Origin: Methanotorris igneus Kol 5
Lineage (GTDB): Archaea > AGJL01 > Methanococci > Methanococcales > Methanococcaceae
Direction: 5' to 3'
DNA: 64,000 nucleotides
Assembly (NCBI RefSeq): GCF_000214415.1
Contig: NC_015562.1
Coordinates: 62,001 to 126,000 of the forward strand
In this document: one piece after another, positions 15,170-17,861 of the stretch
Position numbering within the stretch: position 1 is the first letter of the stretch
Layout: every line of letters starts with the position of its first letter
The notes under the pieces: generated by a model
Told to the model about the DNA's origin: nothing
The model's input: only the letters and a program-made list of their open reading frames with translations
Database searches by the model: none
Translations under genes and position numbers: made by a program

Positions 15170-16090
15170 TTATCCTTCGTAAATTTTTAGTGCCTCTTCA
15201 ACGGTTTTATTTTCAACGGTAATTGCATAAATAGCATTGCACATCCTTATTGCTTCATCAAGAGGTTTTTGATGAATATTTCTTCCTGTTGCATTTCCTG
15301 CAGCGCCACTAACGTGTATTTGCTCATATAACCTCTGCAAAAATGCCTTAACATCTACACTTGGTCCTCCAGCACATAGCACTTTTGTTCTTCCTGCTGC
15401 TAATACCGCCTCTTTAAACGCTTCTGCTGCATTTTTACATTCTGGATAATTTACTTTAACAAAATCTGCTCCTAAACATGCTGCAACTCCTGCAGCCCCT
15501 GCTATTAAATGAGGATCTTTTTCATTTTTAACTGCCTTGCCTCTTGGGTAAGACCAAATAATTGCTATTAAGCCGTGTTTGTGAGCTTCATATACGATTC
15601 TTGAAGCCTCAGCGAACATGATGTGCTCATATTCACTACCGGGATAGATTGTATAACCCACTCCTAATATATTAAGCCCTGAATTGTTTTGAAACTCGAC
15701 GACATCCTTTACATCAATCAAAGCCCTACTTATTGGATCTCTTTGGGATGTTTTAACCAAATGGGTTTTTGAATTTATTTTAACAATATATGGCACCTTT
15801 CTATAATCCATACCGTATCTCGCTATTAATCCCAACTGAGTAGCAAATGCTCCAATTTTTGCCTTACTGGCAATTCTAAAAAGGTGTTCTGGGTCAGCAT
15901 CATCTTTTGCTATCCCCTCCCCATAGAAGTCATCATTTAAATGTTCCATTTTTTGATCTCCAGCAAACAACATTACTCTACCAGTATTTTTTGTGAGCTC
16001 TAAATAATTTTCTATGTATTTTTTTCTTGCAGATTCTGGAACATCAAGTGGCACTATAACATCTTTTTTGCCCATTCTGTTTTTTCCCAT
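15170..16090 (-). CDS. Class I fructose-bisphosphate aldolase (DhnA type)
   Basis: This 306-residue TIM-barrel aldolase is of the archaeal DhnA/FbaB family. VMLFAGDQKMEHLNDDF lies near residues 39-55 and the Schiff-base lysine is in ADFVKVNYPE near residue 210; GGPSVD and SGAAGNATGRNIHQ form the phosphate site. It condenses dihydroxyacetone phosphate with glyceraldehyde 3-phosphate. Related methanogen paralogues make 6-deoxy-5-ketofructose phosphate or ADH for aromatic synthesis, so the substrate assignment is by similarity only. The start has GGGGT-AAAT-ATG. Confidence 0.85.
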   Translation of the reverse strand: MGKNRMGKKDVIVPLDVPESARKKYIENYLELTKNTGRVMLFAGDQKMEHLNDDFYGEGIAKDDADPEHLFRIASKAKIGAFATQLGLIARYGMDYRKVPYIVKINSKTHLVKTSQRDPISRALIDVKDVVEFQNNSGLNILGVGYTIYPGSEYEHIMFAEASRIVYEAHKHGLIAIIWSYPRGKAVKNEKDPHLIAGAAGVAACLGADFVKVNYPECKNAAEAFKEAVLAAGRTKVLCAGGPSVDVKAFLQRLYEQIHVSGAAGNATGRNIHQKPLDEAIRMCNAIYAITVENKTVEEALKIYEG

Positions 16091-16301
16091 ATTTACCCCA
16101 CATTTAAATTATTTGAATTTACAATTTTTTGGAATTTATATATTGTTATATTTTAATTACAGCAAATATATATATTTTTGTATATAAAGTTATAATTGAC
16201 CATAAATAGAGTGCATGATTACAATATAATTTAATGAATTATCAAAAATAACTAAAGTAAAGTAAAACTTAAAAATGAAAATCGCTTAGGGGTTGAATTG
16301 C

Positions 16302-17861
16302 ATGAAACCAACGGCTTATTTTTGTATGGAATTTGCCATCGATCAACCATTAAAAACATACGCTGGGGGGTTAGGATTTTTAGCAGGCTCTCATTTTAGG
16401 GCTGCTAAAAGATTAGGCTTACCTTTAGTTGGAGTTTCCATACTTTGGAGTTATGGATATTATGACCAAGTTAGGGATAGAGAAGGTAGAATGAAAGTGG
16501 AATATGTAAGAAAATACTATGATTTCTTGACAGATATTAAATTAAAAGTTCCAGTAACCATAAATGGAGCTACAGTTTGGGTTAAAGCCTACAAACTTGA
16601 AGAAGACGTTTTTGGCACTTGTCCAATATATTTTTTAACAACTGACATACCTGAAAATGACTACCTTTCAAGGACAATTTCTTATCACTTATACGATAGC
16701 AATAACTTAACACATATAGCCCAAGAAATAGTCCTTGGAATTGGAGGATATAAGGTTATCAAAGAATGTGAAAATGTCAAATTATTCCATCTAAATGAGC
16801 CACATGGTCTACCACTTGCATTTAAAATGCTTGAAGATTATGGTTTGGATTATGTTAGAGAACATTTGGTTTTTACTACTCACACACCAATGCCCGAAGG
16901 TAATGAAACACAAGATATAAACTTACTTAAAAACATGGGATTCTTTAGTAATGTAGATATCAAAACTGCAGAAAAATTGGGAGGAAATCCATTTAATTTA
17001 ACCGTTGCAGCATTAAGAATGTCCAAAAGAGCAAATGCAGTTTCAAAACAACATAAAAAAACTACAGACCAAATGTGGAGTTGGGTAAAAGATAAATGTG
17101 AAATAATCAGTATAACAAACGCTCAAGACAGGCATTATTGGCAAGATAAAATCATAAAAGAGGCTGCAGAAAATTACGACTATGAGAAATTGAGAGAGAG
17201 AAAAATGGAATTGAAAAAAATGCTTTTTGGGGAGGTTGCAGACCAAACTGGAAAAATTTTTGATCCAAATGTGATGACTGTTGTGTGGGCAAGGAGATTT
17301 GTAGAGTATAAGAGACCATATTTGCCATTGTATGATGAAAAAAGATTAAGGAAGCTATTAGAAAGTAACAAGATGCAGATAATTTGGGCTGGAAAACCAC
17401 ATCCAAACGATTCACAAGGGCAAATGACCTTTAACTGGATAGTATCAAAAACAAGAGAAATGAAAAATGCTGCCATACTTACTGGATATGAGTTAAAGCT
17501 AAGCAAGTTATTAAAAATGGGTTCTGATATCTGGTTGAATACACCAAGGAAACCTTGTGAGGCCTCAGGAACTTCTGGAATGACGGCATCGATGAATGGT
17601 TCAATCCACATGAGCACATTAGATGGCTGGCATGTAGAATGGGCTGAAATGTATCCGGATGATAGTTTTACAATTGGTGATGGAGTAAATACTGATGATG
17701 CTTATGAAGCTGATTGCATGTATAAAGAATTGGAAAAAGCTGCTAAAATGTATGATTCTGACGCGTGGTGGGAAAAAGTTGCAAACTGTGTTAACCATAT
17801 TGTTGAATATTTTGATGCGGAGAGAATGGTAAAAGAATATGCTGAAAAAATGTATAAGTAG
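16302..17861 (+). CDS. GT35 alpha-glucan phosphorylase homologue lacking the usual PLP lysine
   Basis: A 519-residue protein with the catalytic-domain hallmarks of glycogen/maltodextrin phosphorylase: AYFCMEFAID..YAGGLGFLAGSHFRAAKRLGLPLVGVS at the N-terminus, HLNEPHG near 161, WARRFVEYKRPYL near 326, and KPCEASGTSGMTASMNG near 414-430. In this last motif family members have GMK, with Lys holding pyridoxal phosphate; here the codon is ACG (Thr). The N-terminal DUF3417-like domain found in bacterial relatives is missing. It is probably involved in glycogen use or synthesis, with the reaction uncertain. I prefer the ATG at 16302 over the TTG at 16293. Confidence 0.8.
   Translation: MKPTAYFCMEFAIDQPLKTYAGGLGFLAGSHFRAAKRLGLPLVGVSILWSYGYYDQVRDREGRMKVEYVRKYYDFLTDIKLKVPVTINGATVWVKAYKLEEDVFGTCPIYFLTTDIPENDYLSRTISYHLYDSNNLTHIAQEIVLGIGGYKVIKECENVKLFHLNEPHGLPLAFKMLEDYGLDYVREHLVFTTHTPMPEGNETQDINLLKNMGFFSNVDIKTAEKLGGNPFNLTVAALRMSKRANAVSKQHKKTTDQMWSWVKDKCEIISITNAQDRHYWQDKIIKEAAENYDYEKLRERKMELKKMLFGEVADQTGKIFDPNVMTVVWARRFVEYKRPYLPLYDEKRLRKLLESNKMQIIWAGKPHPNDSQGQMTFNWIVSKTREMKNAAILTGYELKLSKLLKMGSDIWLNTPRKPCEASGTSGMTASMNGSIHMSTLDGWHVEWAEMYPDDSFTIGDGVNTDDAYEADCMYKELEKAAKMYDSDAWWEKVANCVNHIVEYFDAERMVKEYAEKMYK

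Follow-up and report, generated by a model that had tools for sequence, protein, structure and literature searches.

A clade of GT35 proteins found in archaea and three bacterial groups lacks the lysine that holds pyridoxal phosphate (PLP) in glycogen phosphorylases, and its members are usually the only phosphorylase-type enzyme of the cell. The member described here is encoded in the window, a stretch of 64,000 nucleotides from Methanotorris igneus Kol 5, and is, judging by its sequence, a shortened relative of glycogen phosphorylase. Textbooks characterize these enzymes by the attachment of PLP to a single invariant lysine, and a clade without that residue implies that the lysine is dispensable, that it has moved or that another donor is used. 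The reading we favor, to which we give an even chance, is that the protein degrades glycogen as an alpha-glucan phosphorylase and belongs to a separate GT35 subfamily, which lost the lysine a single time and rebuilt its pocket around Lys405, Glu397 and Ser401.

Loss of the PLP lysine in a GT35 clade

The gene, its probable translation signal and the codon at the PLP-lysine position are as follows:
16302..17861, + strand: Lys-less GT35 (TIGR02094) protein of 519 aa, from ATG 16302 to the stop codon at 17859-17861
16288..16293, + strand: AGGGGT, a Shine-Dalgarno-like element and probable ribosome-binding site, as read from the sequence
17583..17585, + strand: Thr428 (ACG), aligned with the PLP lysine (MalP K646)

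Because of the AGGGGT at 16288-16293, ATG 16302 is the likely start codon in preference to the upstream TTG at 16293. Membership of the protein in GT35/TIGR02094 is solid, with profile scores of 388.7 bits for TIGR02094 (cut-off 191.7) and 64.4 bits for PF00343 (cut-off 27), and we found no second GT35 in the window's genome. The AF2 model of the 519-aa protein (pLDDT 90.9, pTM 0.89) predicts a GT-B fold of the phosphorylase kind. In a Foldseek comparison with the PDB the best matches were to Segatella copri glycogen phosphorylase (9l6i/20yr), and the further matches among those listed were glycogen, maltodextrin and starch phosphorylases only. The divergent neighbor on the minus strand (window 15170-16090), separated by ~210 bases of intergenic DNA, encodes an archaeal class I fructose-bisphosphate aldolase. 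It was not seen at the related loci looked at, and we found no conserved gene neighborhood around the Lys-less gene in Methanococcales.

The motif of the protein reads PRKPCEASGTSGMTASMNG (EASGTSGMT), with threonine at the position of the E. coli MalP PLP lysine, K646 (PMC11046441). The original prediction of threonine at this position (ACG near 17582), with the neighboring motif residues kept, was borne out. A search of the proteins of GTDB genomes returned 46 loci, 44 of which encode short proteins, mostly of ~520-590 aa, from Methanococcales, Campylobacterota, Bacteroidota and Akkermansia; all 44 are without the lysine. Within the window's phylum, exactly one copy is present in 30 of 36 genomes, and the lysine is absent from all 30 proteins, which are from Methanococcales. 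Threonine, whose universality in Methanococcales had been raised as a check, is nearly so (29 Thr, 1 Ser). The same position is T in 60, S in 22 and A in 4 of 86 non-redundant Lys-less relatives, and T in 14 and S in 1 of 15 held-out Lys-less proteins (15/15 without Lys). All ~60 Lys-type TIGR02094 proteins examined, drawn from Bacteroidota and from the phylum to which a Caldimicrobium genome belongs, keep the PLP lysine, even with Glu or Gln replacing the preceding Met, as do five of five classical phosphorylases examined (Bacteroidota). The claim that PLP cannot form its usual Schiff base here likewise holds, as a trait of the whole subfamily that extends beyond Methanococcales. Several Bacteroidota genomes carry two Lys-less copies.

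A sequencing error, a pseudogene or decayed copy, and a single-genome oddity are ruled out by the Thr, Ser or Ala found throughout the relatives and by a dN/dS of 0.034 (0.025/0.726) against a congeneric genome. The Lys-less gene is under strong purifying selection within the genus.

A tree of 102 proteins places the whole Lys-less set on the same side of one branch (SH-aLRT 99, stem length ~1), and therefore one loss of the lysine suffices. MalP sits on a very long branch in this tree, so that the clade may either be nested within the Lys-type proteins or lie alongside them, and the root may separate the Lys-less clade from the rest of GT35. Since both Lys-type groups and MalP carry the lysine, loss is the simpler reading, and we favor the view that it was probably lost once, in a distinct GT35 subfamily.

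Active site and cofactor pocket

The active-site and pocket features of the protein are as follows:
16365..16376, + strand: GGLG loop (residues 22-25), phosphate/glucose loop of GT35, invariant in the clade and in Lys-type proteins
16881..16883, + strand: His194, aligned with MalP H346 (rabbit His377), glucose binding, invariant
17118..17126, + strand: Asn273-Ala274-Gln275, Asn-Gly-Val/Ile in Lys-type proteins, a clade-specific change beside the glucose-site Asn
17292..17297, + strand: Arg331-Arg332, aligned with MalP K534-R535, ligands of the PLP phosphate and substrate phosphate
17310..17312, + strand: Lys337, matching MalP K540, phosphate ligand, invariant in both groups
17484..17516, + strand: Gly395-Tyr396-Glu397...Ser401...Lys405, PLP-pocket helix (MalP D613, Y614, C615, A619, I623)
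17559..17561, + strand: Glu420, matching MalP E638 (rabbit Glu672), conserved active-site Glu, invariant

The residues that serve glucose and the two phosphates (His194, Asn273, Arg332, Lys337, Lys365, Glu420, Thr424 and GGLG) are conserved in both the Lys-less and the Lys-type groups. Clade-specific positions, fixed within each group and different between them, were found from 86 Lys-less and 32 Lys-type proteins, and a held-out set of 15 Lys-less and 30 Lys-type Bacteroidota proteins, unused in finding the positions, served as the test. S30, W49, Q275, K301, P366, G395, E397, S401 and K405 were present in 15/15 held-out Lys-less and 0/30 held-out Lys-type proteins, and four of them (G395, E397, S401 and K405) are also invariant in all 86 Lys-less proteins of the first set. 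Lys405 thus occurs in 101/101 Lys-less and 0/62 Lys-type proteins, the latter having mostly Val, Ile or Thr at this position. In the AF2 model these four residues lie on a turn and helix 398-407, with Lys405 one helix turn past Ser401 on the same face. The cofactor pocket has changed in concert, with G395, E397, S401 and the new invariant Lys405 on one helix and A274 and Q275 in addition. This joint change of several pocket positions would fit a protein that has ceased to bind PLP just as well.

The pocket-helix positions match residues 648-650 and 653 of rabbit phosphorylase, which we take to contact PLP, and from these presumed contacts and helix periodicity Lys405 may reach into the PLP pocket. 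Because Lys405 shares a face with Ser401 and replaces what is mostly Val or Ile in Lys-type proteins, it is the leading candidate for a lysine that was relocated or serves as a substitute. A PLP lysine conserved elsewhere in the subfamily had been named as the observation that would count against the original prediction; such a candidate exists at the sequence level only, in the form of an invariant lysine on the pocket-lining helix face that may be a PLP ligand. Another lysine considered, as the replacement or as the lysine of the GT5 KxGGL motif, was Lys18, where the first Lys-type set has Pro. It was dropped because the held-out Bacteroidota Lys-type proteins have Arg or Gln there and one Lys-less member has Arg; the loop carrying it is poorly modelled by AF2.

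Phosphorylase and synthase genes of the carrying genomes

We selected 29 genomes solely for carrying the Lys-less gene. Apart from two Nitratiruptor-type genomes, none of them has a Lys-type TIGR02094 protein (27/29), and a TIGR02093-type phosphorylase over the cut-off was found in none of the 29. An even draw of 118 Bacteroidota genomes, with the center genome included among the carriers, gave 15 with the Lys-less form, none of which has another GT35, and 103 without it, 87 of which have a Lys-type or classical GT35 (Fisher p ~3e-10 with the center left out, a value inflated by ignoring shared ancestry). This pattern is replacement of other phosphorylases by the Lys-less form, and the Lys-less clade occupies the phosphorylase slot of its genomes.

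The Nitratiruptor-type genomes have a Lys-type protein, a Lys-less protein and a GT5 together and, because they keep both forms, the two are not simply interchangeable. At Arcobacter and Sulfuricurvum loci the Lys-less gene is grouped with glgA and glgB. One Nitratiruptor-type cluster (L011) comprises a Lys-type GT35, pgm, pgi, the Lys-less GT35, a nucleotidyltransferase-phosphomannomutase fusion, two GH57 and a GT5, and a short CBM48-like (glycogen-binding-like) protein is encoded in the Nitratiruptor-type cluster (L009/L010). At Chitinophagales-type loci (L033, L034, L035, L038, L039, L042 and L047), Hsp20-like small proteins flank the Lys-less gene and several of the loci also encode an FtsH-like protease, which suggests stress-linked surroundings.

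An intact GT5 glycogen synthase (L195) is present in the window's genome, in which we found no GT3 (PF05693) match, and most genomes carrying the Lys-less gene have a GT5 or GT3 synthase. The exceptions without a full synthase are Pontibacter and one MAG (a short GT5-like protein only), one incomplete methanogen, and Akkermansia, where a GT4-like protein and a GH57 lie side by side. Five Methanococcales genomes, three of them 96-99% complete, lack both the Lys-less gene and GT5, and in methanogens the gene tends to be lost together with the synthase. The Lys-less gene is present, and no GT5 was found, in three Methanococcus-like genomes (G048-G050) of 97-98% completeness. These three also keep a GT4-like protein, and one of their Lys-less genes (L133) has a longer branch. 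In the Methanococcales GT5 synthases of the window's genome (L195) and of a Methanocaldococcus (L200), Ser replaces the lysine of the bacterial KxGGL motif. Bacteroidota genomes with the Lys-less gene also encode a GT5-like protein of 270-330 aa that has the N-terminal domain only. We set aside this short protein (e.g. G009:C21, L199) as a partner subunit of the Lys-less protein; it looks unrelated because in Pontibacter its GG loop is lost and panC adjoins.

Because seven of seven genomes of genus g2 (Methanococcus by inference) have only the Lys-less form, MMP1220 of M. maripaludis probably belongs to the Lys-less clade. Glycogen phosphorylase activity was reportedly measured in M. maripaludis extracts by Yu et al. 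in 1994. Glycogen breakdown in this organism has been credited to the glycogen phosphorylase MMP1220 in a review (PMC4902934), which is the only publication we found on MMP1220 in the searchable literature; there we found none on MJ1631 and no report of a Lys-less GT35 clade. Where methanogen genes (such as MMP1220) and those of many Bacteroidota are routinely annotated as 'glycogen phosphorylase', the annotation rests on a protein without the cofactor anchor.

Candidate reactions and comparison with known enzymes

Occupation of the phosphorylase slot points to glycogen breakdown, and the pocket residues indicate that the cofactor is held differently from usual. In a degradative phosphorylase of this kind, PLP or another phosphate-bearing ligand would still sit in the pocket, held by the retained phosphate ligands (the GGLG loop, Arg331, Lys337 and Thr424). 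PLP could be attached through a Schiff base to Lys405 from the neighboring helix or bound non-covalently, and its phosphate would still serve as acid/base for the attack of inorganic phosphate on the terminal glucose. The data show a single clade without the lysine, catalytic residues kept, a pocket altered in concert and a place in the phosphorylase slot of the genomes; from these we infer the cofactor, what Lys405 does and which reaction is catalyzed.

The original prediction had offered non-covalent use of PLP or a different glucosyl transfer, such as glycogen synthesis from a nucleotide sugar, and either may be right. A nucleotide-sugar-dependent alpha-glucan glucosyltransferase, with a nucleotide in the place of PLP, would build chains or trim them with NDP in reverse. 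Loss of the PLP lysine and the rebuilt pocket fit such an enzyme, as does the descent of GT35 from an NDP-sugar enzyme, with PLP replacing a nucleoside monophosphate, that has been proposed (PMC11046441). Gly-Tyr in the pocket helix, like Ser401, is reminiscent of GT5 synthases (GY....LSH..AGSD); at these positions Lys-type proteins have mostly Asp/Asn-Tyr and Ala. PF08323 (GT5) matches 16 of 41 Lys-less and 1 of 40 Lys-type proteins, and PF00534 matches 13 and 1 of the same sets; the PF08323 matches of some bacterial clade members are weak, and the 519-aa protein has no match to this profile at E 10. The G048-G050 genomes, with the Lys-less gene and no GT5, also favor this reading. However, most carriers already have a GT5 or GT3 synthase, and an NDP-sugar enzyme would leave them with no phosphorylase at all. 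The Lys-less and Lys-type groups are not clearly separated by their profile-profile scores against GT5, phosphorylases come first in Foldseek, and all phosphate-site residues are phosphorylase-like, though some are common to GT5. We consider this reading, the main rival of the phosphorylase, unlikely. The synthase idea is weakened by the intact GT5 in the window's genome, the GT5 or GT3 of most carriers and the replacement of other phosphorylases. The core of the original interpretation stands, and the interpretation as a whole is partly supported.

The phosphorylase-slot evidence would serve equally well for a PLP-free phosphorylase-like or transglucosylating enzyme, in which another anion, a bound nucleotide or the Glu397 and Lys405 side chains transfer the proton, and the new charged, invariant residues of the pocket would suit it. 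That the ligands of the PLP phosphate have been kept speaks for a phosphate of some kind remaining in the pocket, and we know of no GT35 enzyme that works without PLP, which makes this enzyme improbable. A catalytically dead or regulatory glycogen-binding protein would explain the loss of a residue considered essential, but it is very hard to reconcile with a dN/dS of 0.034, with catalytic residues kept across archaea and bacteria, and with a protein that is usually the sole GT35 of its genome.

We hold more tentatively, at somewhat less than an even chance, that this is a GT35 lineage working without PLP on the usual lysine by means of either a nucleotide (with NDP-glucose as donor or acceptor) or a relocated lysine. 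If so, the lineage would stand naturally between glycogen synthases that use nucleotide sugars and phosphorylases that use PLP, as an intermediate or as a reversal. Whether the lysine is dispensable, has moved or has given way to another donor, the answer matters for the proposed replacement of a nucleotide by PLP in an ancestral NDP-sugar enzyme (PMC11046441).

The closest known systems are the Lys-type TIGR02094 proteins (e.g. Segatella copri glycogen phosphorylase, PDB 9l6i), which are ~33% identical across the whole core and align with the clade in hhalign at probability 100 and E ~1e-129. They share its fold and its catalytic, glucose and phosphate residues, but all those examined have the PLP lysine, and they typically carry D/N395, D/N397, A401, V/I405, G274 and V/I275 (numbering of the window's protein). 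Their long forms have an N-terminal DUF3417 domain, which the clade lacks. Classical phosphorylases (TIGR02093, E. coli MalP/GlgP, rabbit muscle GP) have the GT-B fold, the EASGT motif, the GGLG loop and the RR/KR...YK phosphate site in common with the clade, but are ~800 aa long, compared with 519 aa for the clade member, and carry the PLP lysine (MalP K646). To GT3 glycogen synthases we found no profile similarity. The GT5 glycogen and starch synthases (GlgA) are, like the clade, retaining GT-B glucan enzymes, with a Gly-Tyr helix motif in common and weak Pfam similarity to some clade members; they differ as NDP-glucose enzymes with an EPCG motif, where the clade protein reads EASG.
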